From Cephalotus follicularis (lineage: Eukaryota > Streptophyta > Magnoliopsida > Oxalidales > Cephalotaceae), in assembly GCA_001972305.1 (NCBI GenBank), contig BDDD01001456.1:62001-126000 (forward strand): a stretch of 64,000 nucleotides of DNA, given 5' to 3'. The translations under genes were made by a program, and so were the position numbers. This document shows, one piece after another, positions 2,955-63,020 of the stretch. The notes beneath the pieces were generated by a model. That model was not told the DNA's origin. It saw only the letters and a list, made by a program, of their open reading frames with translations, and made no database searches. Position 1 is the stretch's first letter; every line of letters begins with the position of its first letter.

Positions 2955-4083
2955 AACCAACCGAGTACAAGATTGCTCCCTCCGAGCTATACAAGAGACA
3001 ACCTCTCTTGTTTACAAGTAAATTGAAAGTGTTTGAATGGTTTACAAATTCTCAACGAATTTGTTTACAATTTAGCTCAAATCTAACAAAGCTTCTAGTG
3101 ATTGAGAATGTAAAAAGGGAAGGCTTTGTAATGTGTGAAATTGCTTCAATATGATCTCTTTTGTTGTTGATAGTGTTTAGAATATTGCTTGAGTTGCCTT
3201 GAATGATTATCCAACTTGATTGCTTGAAGTGACTTGAAAAATGCTCCACTTTGGCTTATAAACATCTGCTCCAACGGATCTATTTTTGAATGTCTTGCAC
3301 AATCCTGTCGGCTGGATTTTTTGGGCAGTCAGCTGGAGTTGATGGCGCGTTTTTCAAATATAGTCGTTAGTTGAAGGCAGTTGGTTGCTTCCTCTGGGCA
3401 GTCAGCTGCTTCCTCTGGGCAGTCGGCTGATGCTCTGTTCCAGTAGGCTGGACGAGGTGGATTGGACTTCCAAAAAGCTACTGCCAATTTTGCACATATC
3501 TTTGACAGTCGGCTGGAGATGTTAACAGCCGACTGGTGATCCTTGACAATCGACTGGTGTCCTGCTTCAGTCGGCTGGTTGAGGCGGTATGGAGTTAAAA
3601 AACCTACTGCCTCATTTTGACACACTTGACAGTCGGCTGGAGATGTTGACAGTCGACTGGTGTCCTGCTTCAGTCGGCTGGTTGAGGTGGTATGGAGTTC
3701 AAAAACCTACAGCCTCATTTTGACACACTTGACAGTCGACTGGACCTCCTTGGTAGTTGGCTGTTTTGTCCTGGCAGTCGGCTGCTCCCCTGATGCAGTC
3801 GGCTGGTGTGGAGTGTACCTTCAGGTGCTGGGATTCCTTCAAGAACCAGTCAGCTTTTTAATCCAAACAGTCGACTACTCAACCAAAACAGTCGGCTGTC
3901 CAACCTGGGTAGTCGGTTGTTTTTGCCTGTATCTGCAGAAATAGCCTTTGCACAACTTTGGATATTAAATCAAATGAGTATATGAATTGATGGTTCAGAA
4001 AATTATGCATACAGGTATTACATGTTTGTTAATCATCGAAATAACACATGTTAATGCAATTCACAGGGTGGCAAGGGCCAACA
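2955..4083 (-). repeat. Copia A 3' LTR (partial)
   Basis: Matches 11311-12462 nearly base for base; the part equivalent to 11058-11310 is not seen here. The upstream boundary is marked by the purine tract GGGGGAGAT next to TGTTGGCC (read on the minus strand). It holds a dense array of CAGTCGGCTG / CAGTCGACTG palindromes (about 3301-3935), then a CAACGG box and a TATA-like box (3254-3277) downstream in the element's direction. A 124-bp tandem duplication starts near 3506. Confidence 0.9.
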
Positions 4084-4640
4084 ATCTCCCCCTTTTTGAT
4101 GATTGACAAAACATACAAATTTTGCATAATTTTTTGACAAACTACACACTTTTAACACCCAAAGTTCAATATAATCAGTTATGTCATAATCATTGCATTT
4201 CATAGCATAAGGCATAACAAATTACACTTGGACAACACAAAAATTCATAAAGTTTCATACTTTTTCTCAACGAATTTTCATTTGCATCATTTACACAAAA
4301 TTCAACTTCTGAAACATTTCTCCCCCTTTTTGTCAAACAACAAAAAGATTGTAGGCTCCCCCTCAACCCAAGCATGTGATTTAAAAACTCCCCCTCAACA
4401 TTTGCATACTGAATTTACATATCAAGAGATATTGAAGAGTAAGAATGGATCATCATTAAAACATAAATGACAAGAAAATGAATAACTAAACACACTTTCA
4501 TTAAACGAAAAGAGGCAAGTACATAATCTAACTTCAAATGTCATTACAATAAAAACATCTCATAAACAAACTAAGAATTGCATTACATCTTCAACCTTCA
4601 ACATTTTTAATTCAAAATACAAGAAAACATGTAATGCAAC
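4084..4640 (-). promoter_or_regulatory. Copia A tail with several polypurine tracts
   Basis: Between the third reading frame and the 3' LTR, the minus strand carries at least four GGGGGA-type purine tracts (near 4085-4100, 4319-4336, 4355 and 4387). The one touching the LTR, AAAAAGGGGGAGAT, is the expected plus-strand primer. Repeated purine tracts here are a known Sirevirus hallmark. No coding signal is seen. Confidence 0.8.
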
Positions 4641-4648
4641 AGTGTAGC

Positions 4649-5760
4649 TCATGACGATCCGGGAGGAGGGTTTTGTGGAAAAGCATTTTGGAACATCTGG
4701 ATGAGAGTGGCTTCGACTTCATAGATTTGATCCACTCTCCCTGTAATGTATTCAATGTCTTCTTGTGCCAAGTCCATCCTCGCTTGAAGAGACTCTAGAG
4801 TGGGTCTGCTGCCACTGCTGTTGCTCGCTCCAACGTTTGTCCTCATTTCAAACTGTTGAGCATCATCTTCTTCTTCCTCTTCATCCCCATCTCCTCCGGC
4901 ACTCATAGCTGGTTCCCTCGCAGGTTCTCTGCCCCCGGCCAGTTGTTTTACCCACACACCATCCTCGAACTTAATATTGCAGCTTCTAAGCCTAGCTTTG
5001 TTAATGAGTTGCTTATGGGATGGTTTAACCTTGTGCTCATCATCTGGTATTTCAAGGTTAAGGGATGCTAGGATCCTACTTATAGGCATTGGGTAAGGAA
5101 TGTGGTGTGGCCTGGACAACATATGATTAACAATAAGATAGGGAAGGTTCACAAGAGTGCCATTTTTTATGCAAACCACAAGTTTAAGGTCTCGCTCGGA
5201 TGGGAGTGTGTGCGAGCCTTCCTAGGTAAAAGAGTTTTTGTAATTATTAAGAGGAGAATGCGGGTGGCTATGGGAAGATGGCTACTAGTCACGGTCAAGA
5301 TAGGATTAAAATCGGGGCGTTCTAAGCAAATACCTATTGCTTCCAATTTCTCAATGTCATTAAAGTGAGTAATACCGGAATTAGGAATCCCTAAGGTTTC
5401 GGCAATAAGATCCGGGGTTATAGACACTGGATTACCTAAGGTAAAGGATTTGGCTACACACGTTGTACAATTTTCAAGATTGGCATAAAAAAGTTTCACA
5501 AGTCTAGGGTAAATGGTGTGTGATGAGCACAAATATTCAAACCATCCCATTTGCTCTAGTCAAGACTTAATAATAGCAATATTACTAACTAGAATATCAC
5601 TAGCAAGCCATTTTTCATTATGCAATTTAATAGAATTAAGGACGGAGTGATACCTAGTCTCTTTCTCTTTAGAGAGAAAAAGTTTGTCATCATAGTCAAT
5701 CACACCCTGAGATGGTCGTGGATGCTTTGTTGCTATGCTCTTTCTTCTCTTGGATGCCAT
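4649..5760 (-). pseudogene. Copia A third reading frame (putative plant transposon protein type)
   Basis: A protein-coding remnant downstream of pol, where some Sireviruses carry an extra, sometimes env-like, frame. It starts with a basic N-terminus (MASKRRKS), has a central globular part with 'LGNPVSITPDLIAETLGIPN', then 'NLPYLIVNHM', and ends in an acidic low-complexity stretch (GDGDEEEEEDD) and a helical tail. The 'N.PYL..NHM' block and the layout match the third frame of Copia C (27348-28606), which supports a shared origin. I see no clear signal peptide or membrane segment, so I do not call it an envelope. Function is unknown. Fossil. Confidence 0.7.
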
Positions 5761-5849
5761 TGGAATCGATTGTAGCTTGTTTGTAGAGAGAGTTAGGATT
5801 TTGGGCAGGTTTGAGAGAGAAGAGGTAACCCGAAAGAAGGGAAATCGGG

Positions 5850-5960
5850 TTTATAAAACCTGATTCCCGTGCCTCCAGTCAACTGGGCTATTTTGTCCAG
5901 TCAGCTATATGTTTAGGCAGTCGACTGGACAATGAGTCCAGTCGGCTGGTTTCTGCAGAA
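5850..5960 (-). promoter_or_regulatory. Copia A internal palindrome array plus TATA-like box
   Basis: Between pol and the third frame lie four LTR-type motifs (CAGTCAACTG, CAGTCAGCTA, CAGTCGACTG, CAGTCGGCTG; about 5876-5950) at 20 to 22 bp spacing. In the element's direction they are followed by TTTATAAA (5850-5858), about 90 bp before the likely ATG at 5760. The order array, TATA, ORF copies the order in the LTR. A role as an internal promoter is inference. Confidence 0.5.
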
Positions 5961-11055: not shown

Positions 11056-11057
11056 AT

Positions 11058-12462
11058 TGTAGGAAGTCTAGAGCGGGGTGAATAGACTTATAAAAATAAA
11101 CTAGCAAATACCCTAGAAACAAAATAAACACAATCAATCAAAAGCGAAAATTAAAGAGTGTAGGGTTGAGAGAGTTGCAAACAAATATATAGTGGTTCGA
11201 CAAACCGCCTACATCCACTCCCCATGGCCTCCCCTTGAGTGTTTCACTAGTTTGCCCCAATCCAAGCTTGAAGTTCCAACCGAGCTTCAACGACTTTCGC
11301 TTTAACCAAGCGAGTACAAGATTGCTCCCTCCGACCTATACAAGAGACAAGCTCTCTTGTTTACAAGTCAATTGAAAGTGTTTGAATGGTTTACAAATTC
11401 TCAACGAATTTGTTTACAATTTAGCTCAAATCTAACAAAGCTTCTAGTTATTGAGAATGTAAAAAGGGAAGGCTTTGTAATGTGTGAAATAAAAAGGGAA
11501 GGCTTTGTAATGTGTGAAATTGTTTCAATATGATATCTTTTGGTGTTGAGAGTGTTTATAATATTGCTTGAGTTGCCTTGAATGATTATCCAACTTGATT
11601 GCTTGAAGTGACATAAAAAATGCTTCACTTTGGCTTATAAACATGTGCTCCAACGGATCTATTTTTGAATGTCTGGCACAATCCAGTCGGATGGATTTTC
11701 TGGGCAGTCAGCTGGAGTTGATGGCGCGTTTTTTAAATATAGCCGTTAGTTGAAGGCAGTCGGCTGCTTCCTCTGGGCAGTCGGCTGATGCTCTATTCCA
11801 GTCGGCTGGTCGAGGTGGATTGGACTTCCAAAAAGCTACTGCCAATTTTGCAAATATCTGTGATAGTCGGTTGGAGATGTTGACAGTCGACTGGTGAGCC
11901 TTGACAGTCGACATGTGTCCTGCTTCAGTCGGCTGGTTGAGGTGGTATGGAGTTAAAAAACCTACTGCCTCATTTTGACACACTTGACAGCCGGCTGGAG
12001 ATGTTGACAGTCGACTGGTGAGTCTTGACAGTCGATTGGTGTCCTGCTTCAGTCGGCTGGTTGAGGTGGTATGGATTTCAAAAACCTACTGGCTCATTTT
12101 GAAACACTTGACAGTCAACTGGACCTCCTTGGCAGTCGGCTGTTTTGTCCGGGCAATCGGCTGCTCCCCTGATACAGTCGGCTGGTGTGGAGTGTACCTG
12201 TAGTTGCTAGGATTCCTTCAAGAACTAGTCGGCTGTTTAATCCAAACAGTCGGCTGCTCAACCAAAACAGTCGGCTGTCCAACCTGGGCAGTCGGCTGTT
12301 TTTGCCTGTATCTGCAGAAATAGCCTTTTGCACAATTTGGATATTAAATCAAGTGACTATATGAATTGATGGTTTAGAGAATTATGCATACAGGTATTAC
12401 ATGTTTGTTAATCATCGAAATAACACAAGTTAAGGCAATTAACGGGGTGGAAAGGGCCAACA
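11058..12462 (-). repeat. Copia A 5' LTR with 21-bp palindrome array
   Basis: A 1405-bp LTR, TGTTGGCC to CTACA on the minus strand. It holds about twenty CAGTC[GA][GA]CTG motifs between 11684 and 12300. Runs start at 11757, 11778, 11799; 11884, 11905, 11926; 12112, 12133, 12154, 12175; and 12226, 12247, 12268, 12289, each step exactly 21 bp. A 124-bp tandem duplication begins near 11864 and 11988. A TATA-like box (11635-11642) and CAACGG (11651-11656) follow in the element's direction. The U5 end carries the 'GTGGTTCG...CCGCCTAC' block shared by the Copia LTRs here. Confidence 0.93.
11461..11520. repeat. 30-bp perfect tandem duplication
   Basis: A 30-bp unit beginning AAAAAGGGAAGG occurs twice back to back (11461-11490, 11491-11520). 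The partner LTR at left has it once, so the duplication arose after A inserted. Confidence 0.9.
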
Positions 12463-13583
12463 TTAAGGAAGCTTACACCTCACAATTTTGTGATTGACCT
12501 CAATCACTAGACCTTGACCTCAAGACCTTAGAGGATTCTCCTCTTTTACATGTGTTTAAAAAGTGTTTACCATAAAACCTCTCAGTAGGTTTGATTTGGC
12601 TTACAATGAAGAACACAAGAAAGAATTTAAAAGGTAAAGCTTTGAAGGTTTTTGAGACACTAGGAGCACTTTGAATTTTATAGAATGTAACTTGCTTGAT
12701 TGGTTGAATTCTTTGTATCTTGAAATGTTCTGAAGGCTTGGATCTTCCTTTTTATAGCAAAAAATTCCTTGTATCCGTTGCTTAAATCATGGAGGTTAAG
12801 ATTTGAAAATCTGATGATTTTCTATAAACTCTGTTAAGTAGCCGTTGAAGTAAAGACGTCGATGTCTTTGATAGGCACCGATGTCTTCATCAGTTAACTA
12901 GTCGTTGCTAGCATCTAGGGCGTAGTCTTTGTGGAAAGTCGTCAATGTCTATAATGGGCGTCGATGTCTTTTCTGGAGTTGTCGCCAGACTTTGAAGATA
13001 TGAGCAACACATCGATGTCCTTGTAAAGGAGCGATGTCTTTTATGGAAAAATAAATGTTATGAAAAACACATCGATGTCTTTATTACTGGATCGATGTCT
13101 TTTAGTTGGACATCGATATCTTCATAGAATCAAATCGATGTCTTTCTTCAGAATCAACCTGTAACTTTAGAGCTTTAAACACATCGATGTCCTTATAAAC
13201 ACATCTATGTCTTTGAGTAGAAACCTCGATGTCTTTTCCGAAAAAGATCGATGCCTTTGAAGGAAATCTGCCTGTAACTTTCGGTGCTAAACACATCGAT
13301 GTCTTCTGAGAAAGGGATCAATGTCTTTTATGAAAAATGGCCTGTAACTTTTGGAGCTAAAGTCGTCATGTAGTTTGATAATGAGATCGATGTATTTCAT
13401 GAAAAACCACCTGTAACTCTTGGTTCTTAAAGACGTCGATGTCTTCTTTAAATTGCATCGATGTCTTTTGTATAAAAACTGTCTTTTTGCCTTTTGTGAG
13501 ATTTCAAGTATCTTACACATAAAATAAACTTTGTTAAAACCAAATATGGTATCATCAAAACAAGGATTTAGACTAAAACGTCA
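12463..13583 (-). repeat. Copia B-type LTR, split by element A
   Basis: Minus-strand LTR that opens TGTTGACGTTTTAG at 13583. It has a U3 array of GACATCGATGTC-type motifs (about 12850-13490), then CAACGG (12775-12780) exactly 23 bp before CTATAAAA (12750-12757), and 'GATTGAGGTCAATCAC', which the LTRs of H and C also carry. It stops abruptly where A begins. Assignment to B rests on orientation, position and the gag similarity of B to H. Confidence 0.75.
12750..12780 (-). promoter_or_regulatory. CAACGG-23-CTATAAA core promoter, B LTR
   Basis: Read on the minus strand, CAACGG starts at 12780 and CTATAAAA at 12757, a 23-bp step identical to that in the C, G and H LTRs. The palindrome array lies immediately upstream. 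Confidence 0.65.
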
Positions 13584-14701
13584 ACAAAGTTAAATATTAC
13601 TGATTTTATTATTGAGCATGACTTCCACTATCGGAAGTATGTTAACTAAACGGGTATGACTTTCACCTTCGGAAGTGTACTGATTTTGATTTAATAAACA
13701 TGTCTTTCACTTTTGGAAGTATGTTAACTTTTGGATATAAATATGAATATGATTTTGGATATTTTCAAAAATTTGTTCGAAAATCTGCTTATGTTTTGAA
13801 GTGTTTTGAATAAAACAATGTTTTAGCATAATCACATACAGAGAAAAACTTACCTATGAGGTCTCATAGCCATGTTCTTTGGCACGGAGGAAATGACACC
13901 TACTGTGGCGGTGTGATCGGTCCACGGCGTCTCTCCTTATATATACATCCTCAGGGCAGGGTATGTATCCTTTTGAGGCGTATGAGTCGACTCTAGTTAT
14001 TATTGGATTTGGATTTTGGGATTGATTGTGTAGTGCAGTACACGTCTTTTCGTTTGGCATGTGGGCCTCGTGAATCCCTTGCACTTATATACATATGTAC
14101 TTCAGATCTCTGTATGAAATTATGAAAATCGGATAAAGTTATGATTTGTGACATTATGTTATTCGCAAAATTATTATATTATGCTTTTCAGAAAGTTATG
14201 AAGAAATTAGAACTGTTTTATTTAAATATCCTGCTTTTCCTTTTAAAGAATATTTAACTTTGTTATTTTCCTATTCTAAAGTTCAGATATTTTGTTTACC
14301 CGTTACTATTTTATTATTCCTTATCCGTACTGAGGTTTGCTCAGCCGCATTTTTGTTTCCATGCGGCAGGTTATCATGAGCATTGGGGAAATGTGTGATT
14401 GGTGATGTCCACCTATGTCTGAGGATCATTTAGGAGATTGGTTCATTTGTGTTTTTGTGGTCTTATGGTCATGTTAGAGCCTGTCTTTTGAACAATGTTA
14501 TTCTTTTCAGATTATGACTTCGGATTATGTTTCTTGTTTATGTTAAAAGTTTTCAGGCTATGTTTTCAGATTATGAAATGTTGTTGGATTATGTTTAGAC
14601 CACCACGTATTTTGAATAAAGATAAGTTTATGCTTGAGTTCATGTTTAGATGTGTTCTGTATTATGACCTGTAAGGGCTCCCACCGTTTAGCGGTGTTAC
14701 A
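13584..14701 (+). repeat. Old Gypsy LTR remnant related to the Z LTR
   Basis: Diverged but colinear with the Z LTR read in the opposite direction. Landmarks are 'GGCGGTGTGATCGG...ACGGCGTCT' (about 13905-13935), 'TACTGAGGTTTGCTCAGCCGC' (about 14328-14350), 'CATGCGGCAGGTT' and an end near GGTGTTACA (14701). No primer site follows, so it is probably a 3' or solo LTR. Older than Z by divergence. Confidence 0.65.
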
Positions 14702-15576: not shown

Positions 15577-16001
15577 TGTCACACCCCGTTATTCAAATTA
15601 CGTTAAGGAAAAGCATATATATGGTGATATCAGGAATAATTATAATCCAACATTCTCCATTAACATTTCAATAACATAAGCGGAAGCATTCATATCTGGA
15701 TTATAAAATACAAGTCATCCGCACGCAGCCAATACTACGTGTGGGCACAATCCAACAATATCCTTATGCTTAAGGAAGTACAACAGTAACGGGGTATGCA
15801 CCGTTCATTACAATACAGTACATCAAAAGATAACAACCTTAAGGTACAAAGAAGCTCTCCAAAAGCTGCAGCAGCACCTCCCGTACGTCTTCGCTTAATA
15901 TGAAATTGTAGGGGTTAGTCGTTGTCCTCACTTGGCTAAGTAGGAAGATAAAGCATGCAATTGAATCTATAAATGTAAATATGCATGACAGTTAAAAGAA
16001 T

Positions 16002-16027
16002 GATATATATATATATATATATATATA
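16002..16027. repeat. (AT)n microsatellite
   Basis: About 13 AT units inside the D 3' LTR. The corresponding part of the 5' LTR is not preserved, so variation cannot be judged. Confidence 0.9.
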
Positions 16028-16727
16028 GTATTCCAATATATATACGCAATCATGCCAAGTGGCCATAGACAGTACAATGCAAGAATACCCCACAAGGGTA
16101 CAATCAATCAGTACAGTGGTTTGGGTGTCACATGTCGCTAACTCCTAGCACCAACTGTGCACCACCTATCTATCACCCTACACTTCGAAGATGATAGATA
16201 AGGTAACATTTACTACCGGCGTTAGCGGGCAGTTTAACAATCAAGTTCTGCATTGCAGACAGTTTGGGTGTGTACTCTAGCCAACTCCTGGCACATAGGA
16301 CCACCTCCGTTAGCCAGTGACATCTACCATCACTCGACTAACTGGCAATAACATACACAATCAATTCATTCAATTCAGCGATAATATTACATAAAGATAT
16401 ATTATGCAATATACAGTAGTTTTCGTTTGTAGAAAACATATCAATTCAGTCAGTGGTTCTCTTGTGAGAACTAAACGGTAGCAGTGCCTCTAATGAGGGG
16501 AAAATAACAGTAGTAGGATAATAAGATTTTCCGTTAGAAAACCGTTAAAAATCATTATTTATGCTTAAAGCATTAGGTTGGTAAAATCCTTGAATGTATA
16601 TTCTTAACAGTAGAAAAATTCATTGAACAACAGTGATAATAGCTACAACAAAGCAAATCAAGTGTCATTACATCCACAATTAAATCAATCGATCGATCCT
16701 AAGAATTCTATTCCTACTGTTCTAAAG

Positions 16728-16880
16728 CGTCGACAGTTTCTGTGTAAGCGTCGACGGTTTGAGCCTAAGCGTTGACACTACACACTTGAGTGTCGACCTT
16801 CTAGGCTTTAATATGCCATTCTCGTACGAAAGCGTTGACAGTGTCTGTGTAAGCGTCGGCACTTCTTGCATTCATACGAA
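16728..16880. repeat. D LTR palindrome array, first set
   Basis: CGTCGAC-type motifs start at 16728, 16749, 16770 and 16791, exactly 21 bp apart. A second pair near 16832 and 16853 is also about 21 bp apart. Arms are AAGCG/CGCTT type, as in Copia C. Confidence 0.9.
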
Positions 16881-17784
16881 TTCCAGGAGCGATTTCGAAA
16901 TAGGGGAATACACACAATCAACCCAATTCAGTTCAATTCTACATGCAATCAAATATTGACCATCACAACATATTATACATGTCATAGGTTAAAAAACATG
17001 TCAAAATCCCCTACCTTTAAAGCAGTCCCGAAATCAATCAATTGATTTCTCTCTCTATGTCCAAAGTTCTTCACCCTCCTTTCAATCTCCCAATATTGTA
17101 GAATTTAGCCTAAACAATTGCATTTTTAAGGTTTATACATTAATACCAGTGAGTTAATCTTGTTATCAAATCATGGTAACAACTTATAACTTAAACCATA
17201 GCTTATCATTAGTTTCTAAGCTTCAAAATTCCCTTTTACAATTTATACCCACGCAATCACTAATTCCAGGTTTACTCCATAATTGTTTGTTAGCAATGTA
17301 CATGTATATCTAACATTAGTATGCTATATCACTAACAGCCTTAACTATATCAAGGAATTTCGGATTACTTACCAATTCCAGGTGATGCTCCAATTTCTTC
17401 CCCTTTTTATCATTAGGCTCCTTCAACCTCTAGCAATCCTCCAGCAATTGTCCATATTGTCTCTCTATTTCTCAGTGTTTCTAACACTCCATCAGCTAAT
17501 GGATCAGCTGATATAAAGACTCAATTCCGTGCCTTTAATTTCCTCGGCTAGTTTAACTTTCATTGCACATTTCTCTCTCCCTCAAGCATGCATTCTTTGT
17601 TCTTCTCTAAATTTTGCAGGTTGTGCAGGTGGAAGGGGACATGCAAGGCTCTTAGTTTGGCACTATCAACAGATGGTAAGGCCTCTTTTGCATGGCCAAC
17701 ACGTTTATGGACACATGCCCATACTTCAATAATTTTAACTCTGCCATTTCACTCCAACTGACACCTGTTCTTGCGCCAGAACAC

Positions 17785-17965
17785 ATCTAAAGCGTCGCCG
17801 GTTACATCGTGGGCGTCGACGCTTATACGCCTTTAAGTGTCGATGCTAGGCGTTTAAAAGTCGACGGTTGGCGCCCAATCTCAGCCTTCAACTGTGCGTA
17901 TTGTGCACGTATCAGGGCTTAAAGCGTCGACGGTGTAACTTTAGGCGTCGGCGGTTTAACACCAG
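17785..17965. repeat. D LTR palindrome array, second set
   Basis: Six or so motifs (CGTCGCCG, CGTCGACGC, TGTCGATGC, GTCGACGG, CGTCGACGG, CGTCGGCGG) at 21 to 24 bp steps; the last two are 21 bp apart. Confidence 0.8.
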
Positions 17966-18235
17966 AAATTATTTCTTTATTTTCCATTTAAGAATTTTAT
18001 TCCAACTTCATTCGATTAAAAAGGTAACCAACGTAACATCTCAAAAGGACATTTTATTCATTGATGGGTACAAAACACATGAATTGAAATTGCGGTTATT
18101 ACATTCCCCCCTCCTTAAAGAAAATTCGTCCTCGAATTTATCCCTTCCATTCCGAATAAGTGGGGAAATGTCTCCATCATTTCGTCCTCACGTTCCCACG
18201 TAGCTTCATCTTCTCCGTGAAAACGCCATAGCACT

Positions 18236-22832: not shown

Positions 22833-23218
22833 TGTCACACCCCGTTATTCAAATTACGTTAAGCACAAGCATATATATGGTGATATCAGGAATAAATATA
22901 ATCCGGCATTCTCCATTAACATTTCAATAACATAAGCGGAAGCATTCATATCTGGATTATAAAATACAAGTCATCCGCACGTAGCCCATACTACGTGCGG
23001 GCACAATCCAACAATATCCTTATGCATAAGGAAGTACAACAGTAACGGGGTATGCACCGTTCATTACAATACAGTACATCAAAAGATAACAACCTTAAGG
23101 TAGAAAGAAGCTCTCCAAAAGCTTCAGCAGCACCTCCCGTACGTCTTCGCTTAATCTAAATTTGTAGGGGTTAGCCGTTGTCCTCACTTGGCTAAGTAGG
23201 AAGATAAAGCATGCAATT
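22833..23218 (-). repeat. Gypsy D 5' LTR, partial
   Basis: U5-side end of the LTR, nearly identical to 15577-15962. It ends exactly where the Copia C LTR opens with TGTTGACA. The rest of this LTR is not found beyond Copia C. Confidence 0.88.
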
Positions 23219-24207
23219 TGTTGACATTTATGTCTCAATCCTAAGTTTTGATGATAACACATTTTGTATCTAACAAAGTTTCTTGATGTGCAAGAAAGCA
23301 ACTAAGTAAGAAAAAAAACAGGAATTCTGCAGAAATCAACCCAGACCGTCGACGCCTACAAAGAAAGCGCCCGCGCTTAACCAGGCGGGCGAGACAAGGA
23401 GCTAAGAGTCTACCGGTGGAGTGTACGCAAAAATGGAAATAGCACTGAAACCGTCGACACTCAAAACAAAGCGTCTACGCTATGAGGTCCAAAGTGCCTG
23501 CTCTTAGCGCAAAGCGCCTGCTATTTGTTACAGAGACAGAATGACAATTAAAATGTGCCTAAGCGGCGACGCCCAAAGACTAAGCGTCAGCGCTTTAACT
23601 GGCGGTCGACTCCAACTTTGAAACGCCTGCGCTTTGAGCTGAGAATTCAAATTTGAGATCCCCAACGGTCACATGACCATCAACGCTTTGAAGGAGACAG
23701 TCGACGCTTTAGTCGGCTGGAACAGTTTCTGACAGATTTCAGTGGACATTCCATTAAGGAATTAATCCTAAACTAATCCCAACGGATCTATGAGGCAAGA
23801 AGCTATAAAATGACGAATGTTTGAAGAGAAAGAAAAGAGAACAACACAAGCAAATCATATATACAAACATCATTCAAAGAAATCTCACTCAAGGCATTCA
23901 AATCAAAAGCTCAACCAAAAAGTTTTATTTTACACTTTTAAGCCAATTCTTGTTCTCACTGTTTTGAGCAATCCTATCTTGTAAAATCTAACCTTGTGAG
24001 AGGTTTAGATCAAAACACTACTCTTTATACTTTGATTGTAATAGGGGAGTGAACCCTAGTGAATTTGGGGAGTGAACCCAAAAGAGAATTGTAAGTGATT
24101 GAGGTCAATCACAAAGGTGTAACCGAATATCACCCGCAATTGTATTCAGAGAACTAGTGGAAACTCAAGGAGATCCTTGGGAAAAGTGGACATAGGCAAG
24201 AGTTACC
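23219..24207 (+). repeat. Copia C 5' LTR
   Basis: Opens TGTTGACATTTATG and matches 29404-30400. The U3 array of GTCGACGC/GCGTCTACGC-type palindromes spans about 23345-23720. CAACGG (23780) and CTATAAAA (23803) follow, then the R/U5 blocks 'GATTGAGGTCAATCAC' and 'AGTGGACATAGGCAAGAGTT'. The very 3' end is not present. Confidence 0.88.
23780..23810 (+). promoter_or_regulatory. CAACGG-23-CTATAAA core promoter, C 5' LTR
   Basis: CAACGG starts at 23780 and CTATAAAA at 23803, 23 bp apart, downstream of the palindrome array. Likely LTR promoter core; the start site would fall about 30 bp further on. Confidence 0.65.
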
Positions 24208-27094: not shown

Positions 27095-27245
27095 AACAGA
27101 GCAAAGCGCCGACCGTGGCTATTAAAGCGTCAGCGCTTTAAAGCAATTTTAGGGTTCGAATTTGGGAAATTGGTCTAAGCGCCGACGCTTAAACCAACTC
27201 TGTCGACGCTTTAAGCGGGTTTTAAGTTTCTAAGCGCCGTCAGCC
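27095..27245 (+). promoter_or_regulatory. Copia C internal palindrome array before third frame
   Basis: Between pol and the third frame lie five or six motifs of the element's own LTR type (CGCCGACC, CGTCAGCGCTTT, CGCCGACGCTT, GTCGACGCTTTAAGCG, CGCCGTCAG). The first step is 21 bp and the next ones vary. The third frame starts about 100 bp later. No clear TATA box is seen, unlike in A. Confidence 0.6.
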
Positions 27246-36724: not shown

Positions 36725-36726
36725 AT

Positions 36727-38979: not shown

Positions 38980-39541
38980 ACCTTGTTTTTGTAGGTGTAC
39001 TTGGAGTAAATTTCAAGATGATCAAGTACGCAAATTTGGGGAGAAAGCCTTTGTTGAGAGGGAGGTAACATTTTTTTTGACAATAAAATATTGCTCTCAT
39101 TGATTTAATTTTTATCCAACAATTGGTATCTCTAATTTTTTTTTTGATATTGTTAACTTTAAATGGATGTTATTTCAAATGTAATTCCTTTTTTATCCCT
39201 TTAAAATTGTTTAAATTGGTATCAATTTTGTTAAAATACTCTTTTTGATGCTAACAAAAAGGGGGAGAATGCTTATGATTAAAGAAAAAATGATAGCCTA
39301 TGTTAAGGGGGAGTTTATGATAAAAGGGAATAAAAGGGAAGCAAGATATGATTTACTTGCATAAATCGTTATTTTGAAAAATGAAAAATTAGATATCATA
39401 GTAAGGGGGAGTATATCATAGTAAGGGGGAGTATATCTAATGTTTTTAATCTTTGGTATCTAAAAGAAAATCTTTTTGCTTTGAAATGTCATATTTTTCC
39501 ATAATGAAGAAAATTTTTGTAATCATCAAAAAGGGGGAGAT
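38980..39541 (+). promoter_or_regulatory. Copia G tail with polypurine tracts
   Basis: AT-rich and non-coding. Purine tracts lie near 39255-39266, 39305, 39404, 39424 (a duplicated 'AGTAAGGGGGAGTATATC' block) and 39528-39541 next to the LTR. Confidence 0.75.
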
Positions 39542-40174
39542 TGTTGAGTCTCAATCATAGGGAGATTGTTGAATCTCAATCATATGTTTTAGTGATTACA
39601 AATTTGCATTTCACAAGTTTACTTGATGTGAAAGAAAGTTCCACAAAAGGCAAAACTCATCTGAAGGCAAAAGACATAGATTTACCAAAAATGACATCGA
39701 CGTCCGTACAAAAGACATCGATCCCTTTCAAGAAGACATCGACGTCTTTAATGCCAGAAGCTACTGATCAAATTTTAAATGAAGACATCGATCCCTAAAA
39801 GCAAAGACATCGACGTCCGTACCAAAGACATCGATCCCTTTCCTAAGACATCAACGTCTTTCTAGACCTATCTGCATTTCCCAGAAAAGACATCGACCCC
39901 TACAGAAGAAGTCGATGTGATGCTCAAAGATTCAACTGCCTGGAGATTTCCCAGAAATGACATCGACGCCTTTAAAAAGACATCGACGTCTTTTTAAATG
40001 GATTGACCCGAGAAACATGGAACGAATAGTAAAGGCACTTCTGACGGCTAGCAACTATCAAAGACATCGACGCCTTTCTAAAGACATCGACATCTTTATG
40101 TAAGCAGAGACAAAAACAAAGTTGCATCAACACTTTTTTATATCCAAAATGCCCAAGACCTTTGCAACGGCTAT

Positions 40175-40205
40175 AATCTGAAGAATTCTATAAATACAAG
40201 CCAAG
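40175..40205 (+). promoter_or_regulatory. CAACGG-23-CTATAAA core promoter, G 3' LTR
   Basis: CAACGG at 40175 and CTATAAAT at 40198; 23-bp step. Confidence 0.65.
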
Positions 40206-40450
40206 AAACAAGCTCAAGAGGAACAACTCTTGAACATTCAATCACAAAAGCTCATCTTGCACATCTACAAACAAAAGAGAAAGACATCAAGCTAGATTTT
40301 ACACTTTCATATCCAAAGCTTGCAACTAGTTTACACTTTCATATCCAACCTTTTAGAGGTTACTTGTAAACACAAAACTATCTTTACAAATCCTTCTTTG
40401 TAAAAAGGGTGTTAAAACCCTTGGTGAGAATTTAGAGGGGAGTGAACCCT

Positions 40451-40610: not shown

Positions 40611-40851
40611 AAGCCGAAAATCAAAGGTTGCTAGTGGTACCTAGTGGAATCTCAAGGGTTTCTTGAGAAAGTGGACGTAGGCACGGATTTGCCGAACCAC
40701 TATAAATTCGTTTGCACACTCTCTATCCCTTAACTCTTTACTTACAATTATATTATTTGTTCTTGTGTGCTTGTTTAGTTTCATAATTTAATTTGTAATT
40801 TCCGCATACAATTTTGTTATTTAAGGTTGCCATATAAGTCTTTTATTTTCT

Positions 40852-45568: not shown

Positions 45569-47407
45569 TGTAATAACCGCAACTTCAATTAATGTATATT
45601 GATCCAATTTAAATTAAATATACATTTTAATTGAGTTATTTGTTCAATTATATGGATTTCTATGATTGGTAAATGCTCGGGATGAATGGATGTGCAATTG
45701 GTGAAGTATCAAAATTAAGATGCCCTAAACCGGCCCAAACAGCCGACTGTCACAGGGCAACAGTCGACTGTTTACTACGTATTGAAGGCAGTCGACTGCC
45801 AGTTGAATCCAGTCTACTGGATTTGTCCAGGACAGACTCCTGGCATGTGCAGGGACAAGAATGACAGGTGGGTAGGAGGCACATGCGTTCACCACCTGCC
45901 AGAACATGCAAAAGGGAATGCTTGCATGTTCTCTGCAGACCCACAACCTACAAATTGAAAAATAATAAGAGAAAGGTGAAGAGAGGGATGCATGTGATGG
46001 AAAGAAAAGAGAGAAATGTGAGTGCATGTGACTTAGAGAAGGAATCTGACAAATTCAACAGATTTTTGACCTTATATCAGCTGTTGAATTGTGAAATGAG
46101 TGTTAGAAACATTGAGTGAAGAGAGGAATTATCGGAGCTTGCATTGGAGGAATTGTAGAGAGCACCAAGGAGGACTTGGAAGCTTTAGACTCTTGGTAAG
46201 TTTCTAAACTCGACCTCACTGCCATATGTGTTGATAAAATAGCTAGGAGAATGTGGAATATCTTCTGTTAATATTTAGAATTAACAACCTCTTGAATTGA
46301 AATGGAAAATAGTGATTGGATCAAGTGGAATTGGTGACTATAGTCTCTAATGGAATTATAGATGTTGTAAGTTGGCATTATATAGACATTCTCTTGAGTA
46401 TAGATATATATATATACCTTCTGTCAAAACAAGTTAAATGAATCCGAGATTGAATGATACTTGACATAGAGTTCAAAGAAAAAGTGGTGGAATGGTAAGA
46501 ATGATGTTAAGACTCAATGAGCTAGTGATTAAGCTACTGTTAGAGTTATTGAAACCTACTGGTACTAATGCATGTGTCCATAAAACATGCATACATAGAT
46601 TGAACTTGCTGGATTGAAAGTTTGTTGGTGAAGAAGGCTTGAAACTCAAAGAGAAAGATCAAACTCAATTGATCTTGGGATAGCGATTTGAGGTAGGGGT
46701 AATGATATGTTATGGAAGATATAGTATGCATATTGTGTATGTCTATTTTCTGCATGTTTACATGTGTTGAAATTGATTGGGATTGAATTTGAATTGCATG
46801 ACATGCCACAACCTGCATTTTCTGGGCAGAGGCAGTCGACTGCACCCCTTGGCAGTCGACTACTGAACCTATCCAGTCGACTGCCAAGGCAAAGCAGTCG
46901 ACTACACAACCAAGGCAGTCGGCTATTCTTGATGGCAGTCGACTGTTCTGGGCAAATTTTCTGGTATAAGTCCTATTAAGGCCTCAAATTTGAATGTAAT
47001 GAACCTGGCCTCAATTTGGATGACTAGAACAGTTAATCCTGGCCTCATATAAAATTACATTCCAAAACTAAACAGTGTACGCACTCCTTGTGAGAGTTGC
47101 AAATGAATTGATTATGTGATGCTATTCTTGCGAATCCTTGCATTACTATTGATTTGTGTTATTGCTACTGATTTGGTTATTATTACTGAATATGCTACGG
47201 TCACATTAGTATAAACTGTTTGGTGTCATTAACACCACTACTACTTGAATTTCAACAATTGAAACCAACTATGGGCTATGTACCCAAATTATGATATCAA
47301 CTATCATTTTCAAAAGAATGATTATTGCCAAATGAACTACTGATTTTCCTCCTATATGAGAGGTACCTACTGTTTTGTTTCCCAAACTGGAAACCACTAG
47401 TTTACAC
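45569..47407 (+). repeat. Gypsy F 3' LTR
   Basis: TGTAATAACCGC start. First palindrome set about 45745-45825. Second set at 46833, 46853, 46874, 46895, 46916 and 46936 (steps 20, 21, 21, 21, 20). It is longer than the shared LTR because of the region after about 46735. The block before 47400 is recognisable in the D LTR ('GAGGTACCTACTGTTT...GGAAACCACT' against 16480-16530 reversed). The U5 end is not seen; CACTA sequence starts at about 47408. Confidence 0.85.
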
Positions 47408-52004: not shown

Positions 52005-53389
52005 TGTGACACGCCCCGTTCCCGAGCACCCCGCCCGAGGACGGCCATGCCAGGTGGAAGGATCCCCAACCTGGATCCCTAACCAAAACCCCAATAAACA
52101 AAGACTAACACTAAGGCCAAGGGCAGGCGTTAAAACACACTGCCGAGAAGAGCCACGCTCCCCAAGCCAAACGCACCTAAGGCATGGAAACAAGAAATGC
52201 TCGTGCACAAGGAAATGAACACGTTTAACATAAGCTAAGCCTGGGATCAACCCAAGGGCCCGGGGACAAACGCCAAGCATGGGACAACTACCCGAGGTCC
52301 CTCCAACACTAAACTTACACTAAGGAGATGGAATCTCGCCCCGGCTAGGTACCCAAGGGATCCACCAGGGCTCACCTGACAAAACATCTTCAGGGACCGA
52401 GCTGGTCCGAGGTCAGGAGAACAGGCAAAACTAAGGAAAACTTCTTACTCTCACTTAACGCCTGCGAGCATGCCCGGGGACAAACATCAGGGGACGCCAC
52501 CAAACCTCAGCTTAGGGTCAACCAACCCGAGCTGCGAGGTCAACCTAAGGTTTGAATAACCATGAAAATTGCCACCCCTCCCCCGGCATCACAGCAGAGG
52601 TGCCACGCACAAAAGCCCCCGGGGAGAAACATTGAAGTTTCACCAAGGCCATGGCTGGGGAGACCTGCTCCTCTGCCTAGGGTCAAACGACCCCCAAACT
52701 CATACGTCGTCCCTGCACCCTAAACGCTTAACATAAACAACGACAAGGCTGGGTAAACAACTCATAACAACGAAGTATATAAAACAACAAGTGAATTATA
52801 TACGGTCCCGGGCAAACTGCAAAGGACCCACAACATCCATGAAGTCATATACATGTTTACAAAAAGAGGATTTACAAGACATAGACATCAACAAGTCTAT
52901 ACAAAAACCCTAAGAATGTCCCCAAATGCATGAAGGTGCCCGTGGCCGAGGAGCCATCCTAAGGTGCTGCGTCAGGCGTCTACCTTAGGGATCAAACGCC
53001 CACTCCTCCATCAACCACAATAAGTCTCATACATAACCAAGTAACCAGTAACCAGTAACCAATACCCGAGGACAACAACACATGATATCAAAATAAAGCA
53101 TGAATACTTAAACAGAAAGGGAAACAACAAGTTCAACCCAGGCATCGAGTCCTCGGCTCGGAAACAAGAGTATTCACATGCTAAATCAACAGATGGCAGA
53201 AGAAGAAATCCTAGTCAAAGATAATATCATGGAAGGGCATATAAACAGTAAACTCTCAGTTATCAATTGATAGAAAGAAGAACAGCCCACTCACTAGTAT
53301 CAGCAGTTTCCTCAGCTAGCTTCCTTGTTCTGCGGACTCCGTGCCTACATCTTCCTCTGCAAGACCAACACACAACAACGCTTAGCGAC
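52005..53389 (-). repeat. GC-rich Gypsy-type LTR piece, target of Z insertion
   Basis: Begins TGTGACACGCCCCGTTCCCG, the reverse of a typical Tekay-like LTR end (CGGGGCGTGTCACA), and is visibly richer in G+C than its surroundings. Ends where Z starts, after GCGAC. No coding capacity I can support. The rest should lie beyond Z, outside the window. Identity as an LTR is inference from the end motif. Confidence 0.5.
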
Positions 53390-56037
53390 TGTAACACCCC
53401 CAGACGACGGGAGTCGTCACAGGACATAATACAGAACCTATCATAACATATCGTATCTTATACATAACATATGTAATCAAATCATTTCTTTATTAGCCAA
53501 AACGTGGTGGTCTTATCATAACTGAAACATTGAAACTTAACAATATAACATTTTCGAATAAACTTAAACATATCCGAGTTCCCAATTTAAATCATAAAAA
53601 CATAAGTCTCATAGTTTATGCCCACATAACATAGGGATCACACTCCTAGAGATCCTAACACATAGGGTGGTCATCTCTCGTCACACTTTCCCACGCTGCT
53701 CCTGAAAACCTGCCGCATGGAAAATAAAAACGCGGCTGAGCAAACCTCAGTACAGATAAGGGAATATAAAACAGTAACGATAAGTTTAAAAACAGTAAGA
53801 TTCATAACAGAAATCTTAAGTAAATAAAACAAATAAATAATCGTAAAATCACAATTGTACTTTCATAAAATCCATATAACTTTCGAAACATTTACGATGC
53901 ATTTCATAAAATCATTTACGAATCATATGTCATACTGAGCCACATACATATCACATAACATAAATTTGGCAAAGGGAGGCGCTAATTCCACATGCCCACT
54001 AGAATTGAAGTGTACGGCACTACACAAGTCAATTCTCACATAACACATATCCGATCACACCTCGGATCACATATCTGATCACACCTCAGATCACATAAAC
54101 TAGAATCGATTCATACGCCTCTATCATACATAGCGGATCCATAAATCCACCTCATGGGATTTATTCATACACTCAGAGACGCCGTAGTCTAATCACACCG
54201 CTACGGAAGTGTCACGTCCCTGTGCCAGGCCTACGACGTGCCTATGGTACGCCCCATAGGTGGGTACAATGCTCAGTATTCAATTATTACGAAAACATTG
54301 ATTTATCGAAATCAATTTTAAACCACATAAAATATGCTTTCACAAAACATATCGGAAAACCGCTCACAACGGTATCATAACATACATTTCATAACCCAAA
54401 TCATCAACTCATTTATACTTTGCTATAAAGAGGTGATCGTAACATATCGTATCATTTCATATCATATACATAACGTCGGAATCATTTAAAAATGTCAAAC
54501 CAACTTCATTTTTGAAACGTGTCAAAAAATTTATCAATTTCATAAACGAACAAGCATAGCATAAAGCAAAACTGATTTTATTTGATAAGATCATAAGAGT
54601 GTATCAAGGAACGAAGTATCCGTACCTTATGCGTTTACAATGCACTTACGGATAGGTGATTTAAAACAACTCCACTTGAGGCTCATCAATCTAAAATACA
54701 CCAAAGCCATACGTATAAGAGTCTAATACACATCAGAAACATTAAACAGACTCATGACAGTGTTTGGAAAAGACCCGGATCGATTCGGAGAACAAACGGA
54801 GCAAAACAGTTGAAAATAGTACATTTCAGGGCAAAACAGTCGACTATTACAGAGCACCAGCCGACTGGAGAAGCTCTGCATTCGACTAATCACAGGGCTA
54901 GTCAACTACTCAAACTAGAATGCAGGCAATGGACTGGTTCATTGATTCAGTCGACTACTCGACCCAAGACAGTCGACTGTGTTCATATGGCAGTTGACTG
55001 TTCATCCAATCCAGCCGACTGTCCACAAGAACAGCCGACTGTTCTGGACGACAGAACAGTAGGAAACTAGACAATTCAATACAAAAACTGATTCAAACGA
55101 GTACCACGTTAAACCAGAGACATATGGACACCAATATATGACCATATATGACATTTAGGTGACATGGAAACACAAAATTGACATTGAACAAAATAATCAG
55201 TGGCTTAACTTCAAAGGAGGGCAAGAAAACATGCATACACATATGTCCAGATTCTGTCCATTATCATTTACAGATGTTATAAAACCAATTTATGACAAGT
55301 TTAGATATATCAATCGTGTTAACAGACCTACTAACACCATGGCTAAACATATAAACGTAGGAATTGAAACTAAAGGACAGTAAGAGAATAAAACTCAAAT
55401 CATAACATTGCAGCAAAACCATAGCAGAAAGGAACGAATTAACTGACCTGTAATGGTATAAAGAACACAGAAACCGTACGAGAAATACCACAATTCTATG
55501 ATCACAAGGCTGAACACAAAAACAAAACAAAAGAGAAGGAAAAACGAATATACAAACTCAAAGCTTGTCAAGAAAATATGATCAAAAGACAACAAGGGAT
55601 AACAATCAAACCTGATTTGATGAAGAACACAACAATCACAAGAACATAGAAATTCTCACTTCTAACTTCGGCAGTGACTTCACAGAAGGGAGAGGCAATC
55701 ATATAATAATGACAATGTCTCTCACAAAAAGGAAAAAGGGAGACAAAATCTGCCAAAAAGGGAAGAATAGAGGATTTCCATGGATTTAGAATGGAAAGAA
55801 GATATTTTTGCCGTGTGGAAGTAATGAGGGGAGAGAGTGTTCGGGAGAAAGGAGGAAGAAATAGGAAAGAAAAGAAGAAAGAAGAAAGAAAAAGGAAAAA
55901 GGAAAGAAAAATAAAAGAACAATAAATAAAATGATTAAAATGAAATAATAGGATTTTAAAACAAATAAAAGGAATTTGTTGTAATAAATAAAATTTGATT
56001 AAAATAACAATAAACCCAAACCCAACATAGCATTACA
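53390..56037 (-). repeat. Gypsy Z 3' LTR
   Basis: TGTAATGCTATGTTGGG (56037) to GGGTGTTACA (53390) on the minus strand, 2.65 kb. CAGTCGACT palindromes occupy 54834-55050, mostly at 21-bp steps. A long purine-rich tract (GAAAGAAAAGAAG type) lies at about 55850-55925. The block 53700-53760 with GCTCAGCCGCGTTT (reversed) is also in 13584-14701. Confidence 0.92.
54834..55050. repeat. Z left LTR palindrome array
   Basis: About ten motifs (CAGTCGACTA, CAGCCGACTG, CATTCGACTA, CAGTCGACTG, CAGTTGACTG and others), typical steps 20 to 22 bp. Several have TCGA changed to TTGA or TCAA. Confidence 0.88.
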
Positions 56038-60618: not shown

Positions 60619-60887
60619 GCGTCATACCTCCTGAGCGACCGCCTGACGTACAAGCTCCTCCATAGACGGCTCATTTCTGACTCCCTGAGCCTCCACGGGT
60701 GCAGTCCTCCGAGCAGCGTTCCTTGTACGTGCCATCTACAAAAGGTACCCAAAGCATAAAACATCACAAGGAACAAAACCAAAACAAAAAACATATCATA
60801 AAATCAAAACCGAAACAGCCTAACCCAGTGTCTACCCAATCTCACAAGTCAAACCTAGTTAGGTCTTCTAAGGAAACAAAACCTAAT

Positions 60888-60899
60888 TCTCTGATACCA
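60888..60899 (-). promoter_or_regulatory. Gypsy Z primer binding site
   Basis: TGGTATCAGAGA on the minus strand, five bases after the LTR end GTTACA. Confidence 0.9.
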
Positions 60900-62181
60900 A
60901 AACCTGTAACACCCCCGGACGGCGGGAGTCGTCACAGGACATAATACAGAACCTATCATAACATATCGTATCATATACATAACATATGTAATCAAATCAT
61001 TTCTTTATTAGCCAAAACGTGGCGGTCTTATCATAACTGAAACATTAAAACTTAACAATATAGCATTTTTGAATAACCTTAAACATATCTGAGTTCCCAA
61101 TTTAAATCATAAAAACATAAGTGTCATAGTTTATGACCACATAACATAGGGATCACACTCCTAGAGATCCTAACACATAGGGTGGTCATCTCTCGTCACA
61201 TTTTCCCCCGCTGCTCCTGAAAACCTGCCTTATGGAAAATAAAAATGCGGTTGAGCAAACCTCAGTACGGATAAGGGAATATAAAACAGTAACGATAAGT
61301 TTAAAAACAGTACGATTCATAACAGAAATATTAAGTAAATGAAACAAATAAATAATCGTAAAATCACAATTGTACTTTCATAAAATCCATATAACTTTCG
61401 AAACATTTACGATGCATTTCATCAAATCATTTACGAATCATATGTCATACTGAGCCACATACATATCACATAACATAAATTTTGCAAGGGAGGCGCTAAT
61501 TCCACATGCCCACTAGAATTGAAGTGTACGGCACTACACAAGTCAATTCTCACATAACACATATCCGATCACACCTCGGATCACATATCTGATCACACCT
61601 CAGATCACATAAACTAGAATCGATTCATACGCCTCTATCATACATAGCGGATCCATAAATCCACCTCATGGGATTTATTCATACACTCAGACACGCCGTA
61701 GTCTAATCACACCGCTACGGAAGTGTCACGTCCCCGTGCCAGGCCTACGACGTGCCTATGGTACGCCCCATAGGTGGGTACAATGCTCAGTATTCAATTA
61801 TTCCGAAAACATTGATTTATCGAAATCAATTTTAAACCACATAAAATATGCTTTCACAAAACATATCGGAAAACCGCTCACAACGGTATCATAACATACA
61901 TTTCATAACCCAAATCATCAACTCATTTATACTTTGCTATAAAGAGGTGATCGTAACATATCGTATCATTTCATATCATATACATAAAGTCAGAATCATT
62001 TAAAAATGTCAAACCAACTTCATTTTCGAAACGTGTCAAAAACATTATCAATTTCATAAACGAACAAGCATAGCATAAAGCAAAACTAATTTTATTTGAT
62101 AAGATCATAAGAGTGTATCAAGGAACGAAGTATCCGTACCTTATGCGTTCACAATGCACTTACGGATAGGTGATTTAAAAC

Positions 62182-62628
62182 TGTTGGCCTTTGCCACCCC
62201 GTTTAATTGCATAAACATATGTTATTTTGATGATTAACAAACATAGTTTACTTGTATGCATAAATCCTTGAGTTATAACTTCATATACTCACTTGATTTT
62301 ATGTCCAAAGTTGTGCCAAGAACTCTTATGCAGATACAGGCCAATCCAGCCGACTGGTAGGCAATCCAGTCGACTGCGAGCGAAGTTTGTTGGAGCTCGG
62401 TTGGAGTTTCAAGCCCGGATTGAGGCATACCTAGTGAAATACTCAAGGGGAGGCCTTGGGGAGTGGACGTAGGCGGTTTGCCGAACCACTATACATCCGT
62501 TTGCAATTCTCTTAACCCTACACTCTTTACTTTTCCGCAATTGTGTGTTTGAGTAAATTGTTTTAATTGTGGTATATTTGCTAGATATTTTTTATAAGTT
62601 TATTCACCCCCCCTCTAGACTTCCAACA
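62182..62628 (+). mobile_element. Solo LTR of the Copia A family
   Basis: TGTTGGCCTTTGCC to ACTTCCAACA, 447 bp, flanked by AAAAC on both sides (62177-62181, 62629-62633). The other Z LTR has AAAAC once, so the insertion is exact. Its ends match the Copia A LTR (1405 bp), but it carries only two palindromes (CAGCCGACTG, CAGTCGACTG, 20 bp apart). It keeps the 'GAGTGGACGTAGGCGG' block. Left by LTR-LTR recombination; natural remnant. Confidence 0.93.
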
Positions 62629-62802
62629 AAAACAACTCCACTTGAGGCTCAACAATCTAAAATACACCAAAGCCATACGTATAAGAGTCTAATACACATC
62701 AGAAACATTAAACAGACTCATGAGAGTGTTTGGAAAAGACCCGGATCGATTCGGAGAACAAACAGAGCAAAACAGTTGAAAACAATACATTTTAGGGCAA
62801 AA

Positions 62803-63020
62803 CAGTCGACTATTACAGAGCACCAGCCGACTGGAGAAGCTTGGCAGTCGACTAATCACATGGCTAGTCAACTACTCAAACTAGAATGCAGGCAGTCGAC
62901 TGGTTCATTGATCCAGTCGACTACTCAACCCAAGAAAGTCGACTGTGTTCATATGGCAGTTGACTGTTCATCCAATCCAGCCTACTGTCCACAAGAACAG
63001 CCGACTGTTCTGGACGACAG
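62803..63020. repeat. Z right LTR palindrome array
   Basis: Same array as 54834-55050, with several motifs closer to CAGTCGACTG than in the left copy (for example GGCAGTCGACTAAT against GCATTCGACTAAT). Steps about 21 bp. Confidence 0.88.

Follow-up and report, generated by a model that had tools for sequence, protein, structure and literature searches.

Background

High-copy palindromes are a described feature of Sireviruses, in which Bousios et al. (2010; PMC2829016) reported them, under the name RM, in the long terminal repeat (LTR) upstream of the TATA box and in the linker between pol and env, with flanks that have diverged. In the accessible text of that paper, the palindromes are presented without an identified factor, and RM is held to be Sirevirus-specific and absent from classic Copia elements. 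Two of the 13 words published there have a TCGA core, namely Vitis CGGTCGACCG and tobacco Tnd-1 ACAATCGATTGT (Table 3). Here we analyse 64,000 nucleotides of Cephalotus follicularis DNA (the window; positions 62001-126000 of contig BDDD01001456.1, in a genome of 1.58 Gb), which self-BLAST shows to be made up of nested LTR retrotransposons, and in which TCGA-centred palindromes recur at steps of about 21 bp in the LTRs of both Copia and Gypsy elements. A preliminary description of this DNA knew of no such core among Sirevirus motifs; the two published words show that the core is not new.

We show herein that the array phenomenon is real and genome-wide, and that the longer gaps between palindromes prefer whole helical turns, with two sampled loci carrying most of the spectral signal in the sample. 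With a confidence barely above even, we propose that the arrays may be platforms in the LTR for the cooperative binding of dimers, where a few trans-acting proteins, probably of the host, would serve both Copia and Gypsy. A serious competing account is that arrays have been exchanged between families.

Results

Arrays in Copia and Gypsy LTRs

Over the whole window, TCGA tetramers form 8, 17 and 8 pairs at distances of 20, 21 and 22 bp, and 0-3 pairs at each distance of 12-19 and 23-40 bp. Three words dominate the arrays: the CAG word CAGTCGACTG, in Copia A (as CAG[T/C]CGACTG) and in Gypsy E, F and H; the GCG word GCGTCGACGC, in Copia C and Gypsy D; and the ACA/ACG word ACATCGATGT/ACATCGACGT, in Copia G and in LTRs I and J. 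LTR pairs and the similarity between LTRs were taken from self-BLAST. The array-bearing features are the following (PPT, polypurine tract; ORF, open reading frame).

2955..4083, minus strand: Copia A, other LTR; 17 sites, 3305-3898; Sirevirus PPT AGGGGGAG at 4086-4093
5876..5948, minus strand: Copia A linker array, inside the element and downstream of the pol ORFs; 3 CAG-word sites
11304..12462, minus strand: Copia A (classed as a Sirevirus) LTR; 20 CAG[T/C]CGACTG sites, 11684-12298, from self-BLAST and sites against shuffles
12473..13600 (ends approximate), minus strand: LTR J, Copia-type by similarity to Copia G; 16 ACATCGATGT-class sites, 12856-13464; TATA box 104 bp past the last centre
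15577..18103, minus strand: Gypsy D 3' LTR, start inferred from the PPT boundary GGAGGGGGGAA/TGTAATAACC; GCG-word arrays at 17792-17954 and 16727-16862
23218..24204, plus strand: Copia C LTR; GCG-word sites, 23346-23707
27127..27209, plus strand: Copia C linker array, shortly past the pol end
29403..30390, plus strand: Copia C, other LTR; GCG-word sites, 29530-29892; PPTs at 29098, 29245, 29264 and 29394
33966..34045, plus strand: Gypsy E array, CAG word; a copy of the first Gypsy F array
34747..35653, plus strand: Copia G LTR; 14 ACATCGAYGT-class sites, 34883-35302
35654..36726, plus strand: Sirevirus-type LTR I; 4 sites, 35941-36042; CA/ATTGGTATCAGAG junction at 36725
39538..40443, plus strand: Copia G, other LTR; 13 sites, 39674-40093; five PPT octamers, 39260-39532
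45569..47400, plus strand: Gypsy F 3' LTR, start from the PPT/TG boundary, 3' end not located and the given end nominal; CAG-word arrays at 45740-45819 and 46833-46945
53389..56034, minus strand: Gypsy H LTR; 9 CAG-word sites in the array 54837-55041
60904..64000 (cut by the window end), minus strand: Gypsy H, other LTR; 9 sites in the array 62803-63007

A site in the window was defined as at most two mismatches to any of the three words, and each of 15 regions was compared with 300 dinucleotide shuffles. Counting any pair, 10-bp palindromes are paired at 20-22 bp in 14 of the 15 regions, and shuffles yield at most one pair per region; arrays at 21-bp steps in the two superfamilies, as first described, are supported. 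The Copia A LTRs hold 17 and 20 sites (shuffle mean about 1, maximum 5) with 10 and 14 pairs (shuffle maximum 0), the Copia G LTRs 14 and 13 sites with 8 pairs each, LTR J (12.5-13.6 kb) 16 sites with 7 pairs, Gypsy D 11 with 5, Gypsy E 4 with 2, Gypsy F 10 with 7, and the Gypsy H LTRs 11 and 12 with 7 and 8. Weak cases are the Copia A linker (3 sites, 1 pair), the Copia C LTRs (8 and 9 sites, 2 pairs each) and element I (4 sites, 2 pairs), and a remnant at 38.1 kb has 3 sites (shuffle maximum 3) and no pair at 20-22 bp. The other 43,635 bases of the window contain 33 sites and a single pair (27179/27200), which lies within the Copia C linker. All 20 starts listed there carry a motif of the kind described, but an exact TCGA core is found at only 12 of them, the rest reading TCGG, TCAA, TTGA or TCAG. 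Further arrays, beyond its examples, lie in Gypsy H (54837-55041, 62803-63007), at 12.8-13.5 kb, and in the linkers of Copia A and C, and Gypsy D and Gypsy F each have a second one.

The units of Copia A mostly read CAGCCGACTG in the orientation of the element (11684-12298, 3305-3898). At 54837-55041 in Gypsy H, the opposite form CAGTCGGCTG occupies three of the nine sites and CAGCCGACTG none.

The words elsewhere in the genome

A sample of 200 kb was drawn as 20 stretches from other places in the genome (L numbers below). When any palindrome was allowed, 48 of the 50 pairs of repeated palindromic 10-mers at 20-22 bp in this sample had TCGA or a one-off variant as their core, the first eight examples per core being listed. 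Only three of the 64 possible TCGA palindromes gave more than one pair at 20-22 bp: CAG with 11 (control 0), ACA with 5 (control 4) and GCG with 3 (control 3), where the control spans seven times as many distances; ACGTCGACGT gave no pair at 20-22 bp in the sample. By these counts, the sample makes a strong case for CAG and a modest one for GCG and ACA.

Genome-wide, where exact word pairs were counted for the CAG and GCG words with the reversed pattern as control, pairs at 19-23 bp number 38,210 for CAG and 3,529 for GCG, versus 136 and 4 in the controls. Steps of 19, 20, 21, 22 and 23 bp account for 4, 18, 24, 2 and 2 of the 50 GCG matches listed. CAG pairs at 24-40 bp number 11,007 (control 30), with steps of 27-28 bp at 36 of the 50 places among the matches listed. 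None of the contigs in IMG/VR had an exact CAG pair, and no relative of the one Copia protein tried was found there.

Arrays with at least two short steps number 29 in the 200 kb and occur in 13 of the 20 stretches. The array list for window and sample together comprises 44 of 64 clusters, those with at least two gaps of 19-23 bp, and a single word class makes up 31 of the 44 (ACA and ACG merged). Gypsy proteins and CAG arrays share the same 10 kb in L025, L030, L033 and L035, and Gypsy proteins and GCG arrays occur together in L020 and L031; Copia proteins accompany ACA arrays in L016, L017 and L030, and mixed or other arrays in L017, L024 and L035. No protein match was obtained for the array-bearing stretches L018, L019, L027 and L028; L019, L027 and L028 have one array each within similarity to a Gypsy LTR of the window.

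Spacing and helical phase

The short step measures 20.78 +/- 0.81 bp (156 gaps of 17-23 bp), and longer gaps bunch near 28-31, 41-43, 48-53, 60-66, 70-73 and 83-85 bp. Among periods of 6-30 bp, gaps of 24-125 bp are fitted best by 10.5 bp (35 non-redundant arrays, 79 gaps, R 0.385), and none of 5000 uniform draws attains this R. The 35 arrays come from the 44 listed, with the near-duplicates L019a, L028d, L030a and L035a and the window arrays A3, G3, H5, E and C5 excluded; weaker sites were added by hand to the Gypsy D2 row, and the outer gaps of Copia C were cut. At 10.5 bp, p is 0.00055 for the sample alone and 0.006 for the window alone. For distances of 24-134 bp between TCGA tetramers, eight non-redundant LTRs of the window give a peak at 10.2 bp (power 29.5 from 103 pairs), and the 36 pairs outside the LTRs and linker arrays of the window have a power of 0.3 at 10.3 bp and reach at best 5.6, at 20.3 bp. 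TCGA pairs in the 200-kb sample peak at 10.3 bp, and the seven other palindromic 4-mers tried in the same sample have a power of at most 8.6 at any period.

These values bear on a mutational origin, in which slippage or unequal exchange multiplied 21-bp units and LTR recombination spread the arrays among Copia and Gypsy, so that binding would be unneeded. We regard this account as rather unlikely. The long gaps fit 10.5 bp better than 21 bp (R 0.385 versus 0.326), and the sample has a power of 40.9 at 10.3 bp versus 12.6 at 21 bp; such an origin would also leave the near-exclusive persistence of TCGA-centred palindromes unexplained.

Pairing in RNA would not require a 10.5-bp phase, and a role at that level, with adjacent palindromes forming hairpins in the LTR transcript that serve as small-RNA precursors or as RNA packaging or dimer signals, seems to us very improbable. 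Some arrays do fold better as RNA than their shuffles (Copia G, z -4.1; Gypsy F2, z -8.2; Gypsy H3, z -4.8), and maize Sirevirus palindromes are described as small-RNA hotspots in the available portions of PMC5311732 and PMC10760457. Copia A, which has the most units (20) and mostly uses the imperfect CAGCCGACTG, folds no better than shuffles (z -0.58; 5 of the 20 shuffles match or exceed its stability), and the link to 21-nt small interfering RNAs raised in the preliminary description is not supported.

CAG-word steps of 27-28 bp also occur in the window (33987-34024, 45761-45798), and many spacers of this length have a central ACGT- or CGTG-like core among the genome-wide CAG matches listed. 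A composite element with such a core in the 28-bp gaps was considered as a general rule and dropped, because just two of the 34 distinct gaps of 24-34 bp contain CGTG/CACG (window and L001-L035).

Spacers and possible array growth

Palindromes are conserved in the arrays, and the spacers hold little information. The earlier proposal that spacing is kept while spacers drift is supported in part. The six sites of Gypsy F2 keep steps of 20-21 bp with spacers that are not alike beyond shuffles (10 comparisons, p 0.12), and Gypsy H3 is borderline (21 comparisons, p 0.053), but the spacers within Copia A, Copia G, LTR J and Gypsy D2 are alike; Gypsy D1 and F1, with 3 and 1 comparisons, offer too few to judge. 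Alike spacers in those four sets are what multiplication of units would produce, as are the block duplications that made them alike in Copia A, whereas the unlike spacers of Gypsy F2 tell against it, since drift that large should bring insertions and deletions. Between sets, where likeness was scored as p<0.05 on at least one of two statistics, spacers are slightly above shuffles in 18 of 55 comparisons. This weak likeness may fit an exchange of arrays, a distant common origin, or palindrome-near letters that belong to the site.

LTR J and Copia G differ by 24.8% in their palindromes and by 51.4% in their spacers. This contrast was set aside as proof of palindrome conservation, since the sites were picked by word match and the argument is partly circular.

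Address of the arrays in the LTR

Four of the five families of Copia-type LTRs have a TATA box 100-104 bp downstream of the last palindrome (100 bp from the last centre in G, 101 in C, 101 in I and 104 in J; the Copia C value is counted after the last centre used, a weak site at 29895 being ignored). Gypsy F has a TATA-like stretch 107 bp past its last centre.

The motif YAACGGYYA, which we take to be a mitosis-specific activator (MSA)-like, MYB3R site, occurs in the window at 11740, 12839 and 23172 on the minus strand and at 23663, 29848, 35251, 35374, 35898, 36060, 36115 and 40165 on the plus strand. All 11 copies are inside LTRs and in the sense direction, several just upstream of the TATA box. 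Its enrichment was rejected: there are 18 copies in 264 kb where a Markov model expects 8.5, but permuted-core controls give 6-18.

The related elements Gypsy D and F have two arrays per LTR, with different flank words in both. The second array ends at LTR position +1376 in each element and consists of the GCG word in D and the CAG word in F. Direct alignment of the two LTRs covers 91 bp only. On either side of its second array, Gypsy D aligns with L035: a 213-bp match at 72% stops about 110 bp ahead of the array, and an 831-bp match at 79% begins some 300-460 bp past it. The address of this array is therefore homologous. The spacers of F, L028, L006 and L035 are homologous to one another (p <= 0.021), and those of the second Gypsy D array have no homology to these four (p 0.12-0.53); a swapped-in array is thus as likely as base-by-base change, which is a point in favour of an origin by exchange. 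A point-by-point change of word in Gypsy D was dropped as a candidate because its spacers match the four no better than chance, and the claim is limited to the same address.

Different words at one address in related Gypsy LTRs would also suit a silencing or anti-silencing platform, at which an element-encoded or host chromatin protein adds or removes DNA methylation and the choice of word reflects an arms race. Every array word has a central CpG. VANC targets, as far as the accessible parts of PMC5735166 and PMC10398659 go, are short repeated motifs in non-coding regions of transposable elements (TEs) that differ between related elements and change together, and an extra ORF is encoded by active sunflower Tekay elements (PMC12844716, portions available). 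VANC systems belong to DNA transposons and are TE-encoded, whereas the array words here are common to two superfamilies, and the text seen of PMC5735166 gives no palindromic rule for VANC targets. We consider this explanation unlikely.

Element classes and neighbouring features

The Sirevirus PPT AGGGGGAG, one of the features given in PMC2829016, begins 10 bp upstream of the 3' LTR in Copia A, C and G (at 29394 in C, where the LTR starts at 29403-29404; at 39532 in G, where it starts at about 39538-39542; and at 4086-4093 on the minus strand in A, next to 4083). Several identical PPTs lie near the 3' LTR, four in Copia A (4086, 4320, 4356, 4388), four in Copia C and five in Copia G (39260-39532). 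The 5' LTR junction CA/ATTGG with the primer-binding site TATCAGAGC is found in element I at 36725 (ATTGGTATCAGAGAC, the last base differing), and no match was found beside the LTRs of A, C and G. Palindromic repeats occupy both LTR and linker in Copia A and C; in Copia G, LTR copies only were seen. The CGG-CCG core signature of the Sirevirus RM is absent, the words being CAG, GCG or ACA around TCGA, and the published Tnd-1 repeat likewise departs from it (PMC2829016, accessible text). The repeats are also not confined to Sireviruses, being present in the LTRs of Gypsy D, E, F and H and in Gypsy-bearing sample loci. Judged by these sequence features, Copia A, C and G are Sireviruses. Gypsy H has a predicted chromodomain at the integrase C-terminus (PF00385, 27.7 bits, above the cut-off of 25.1), and the scores of Gypsy F are below that cut-off (21.3 bits for the cut-out end, 17.7 for the whole ORF); assignment to the chromodomain Gypsy class is supported for H and weakly supported for F.

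The remnant at 38107-38540 is a nested Copia C-like LTR whose TCGA sites have decayed and which has a PPT cluster of its own (37871-38098). In a Gypsy H LTR, an insertion of about 447 bp (62182-62628) includes two CAG palindromes and segments resembling Copia A (3911-4083, 11057-11301). Directly past the end of the Copia G LTR similarity is a 43-bp tandem repeat in four copies (40451-40624).

Discussion

From the words, their spacing and preference for whole turns, their presence in both superfamilies and their position in the LTR, we infer a mechanism in which DNA-binding proteins would take each 10-bp palindrome as a dimer, as the palindromy of the sites suggests, and would touch their neighbours along one face of the helix, as spacing by turns suggests. 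The spacing in this way supports the one-face reading of the preliminary description, in which the binding itself is presumed. Three words would point to about three related readers, for the CAG-, GCG- and ACA/ACG-TCGA words. Because the same words occur in unrelated Copia (Sirevirus) and Gypsy (chromodomain) elements, the readers would most simply be host proteins, encoded by neither element, and each element family may have settled mainly on one of them. Bound arrays could then drive or protect LTR transcription, as an enhancer or a promoter-protection platform. A broader formulation is tentative and in our judgement falls well short of even: that one plant genome holds a shared cis-regulatory code, composed of a TCGA dyad, a rule of helical spacing and a flank of three letters that names one of about three host readers, that unrelated Copia and Gypsy families converge on it, and that the related Gypsy D and F carry different flank words in both LTR arrays at a fixed address.

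Several observations weigh against dimer-binding platforms. Word classes are mixed in 13 of the 44 listed arrays, and a TATA box at about 100-104 bp from the last centre is missing in Copia A, Gypsy D and Gypsy H. The best long-gap period is 11.5 bp in the sample alone and 10.8 bp in the window alone; long gaps fall about 1.5 bp short of whole 10.5-bp turns, and gaps of 28 and 48-51 bp recur. The spectral signal of the sample stems largely from L030 and L019, of which L030 is related to LTR J of the window, and the 17 loci that have enough pairs show only weak agreement in phase (nR2 2.68). Block duplication is clear in Copia A, with periods of 103 and 124 in Tandem Repeats Finder. In 9 of 30 comparisons, the likeness of Copia and Gypsy spacers slightly exceeds that of shuffles (p<0.05 on at least one of the two statistics), which counts for spread by recombination and hints more at exchange or a common origin than at one reader used by both. 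Differences between copies are at least as frequent in palindromes as in spacers for the Copia A LTRs (11.0 versus 5.1%), the Copia G LTRs (4.3 versus 4.3%), the Gypsy H LTRs (5.6 versus 4.3%) and elements E and F (7.5 versus 2.5%), and so nothing protects inserted copies; the Copia C LTRs are the opposite, with 11.2% in palindromes and 23.2% in spacers. If selection operates at all, it does so on lineages that replicate rather than on copies already inserted.

A strict spacing rule together with words common to Gypsy points to shared trans-acting proteins, and the question of the reader becomes testable. If the readers are host proteins, then, with arrays so common in the sample, they would be a common point of entry or control for many of this genome's retrotransposons.

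As described in the accessible text of PMC2829016, Sirevirus RMs resemble the arrays here in being palindromic, in occupying LTR and linker, and in the TCGA core of the Vitis and Tnd-1 repeats. That source stresses a CGG-CCG signature, which the arrays here lack, and calls the RMs Sirevirus-specific relative to other Copia elements, whereas the present words also fill Gypsy LTRs. No helical, spacing or periodicity rule was seen in that text, where such terms appear in the reference list only and the sole "21 bp" concerns an integrase signal. The maize Sirevirus palindrome CACCGGACNNNGTCCGGTG, shared with Helitrons (PMC10760457, portions available), is likewise one palindrome in two TE classes of one genome; it differs in its word, in having a DNA transposon as second carrier, and in that the portions available describe no phasing. 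VANC targets of Arabidopsis VANDAL elements, unlike the arrays here, belong to DNA transposons with a TE-encoded reader, and palindromes go unmentioned in the text seen of PMC5735166. Palindromic repeats in LTR and linker are already known as a Sirevirus hallmark, and a TCGA core is present in two of the published words. Helical phasing and the same words in Gypsy LTRs appear new, a statement that rests on a limited look at the literature, in which no report was seen of helical phasing or of these words or arrays in chromodomain Gypsy LTRs and none of the matches listed for the letters CAGTCGACTG had a plant retrotransposon title. In viral promoters, the 21-bp repeats of the human T-cell leukaemia virus 1 (HTLV-1) LTR and of simian virus 40 (SV40) place activator sites about two turns apart; those repeats have few copies and known factors, whereas the arrays here run to as many as 20 palindromes.

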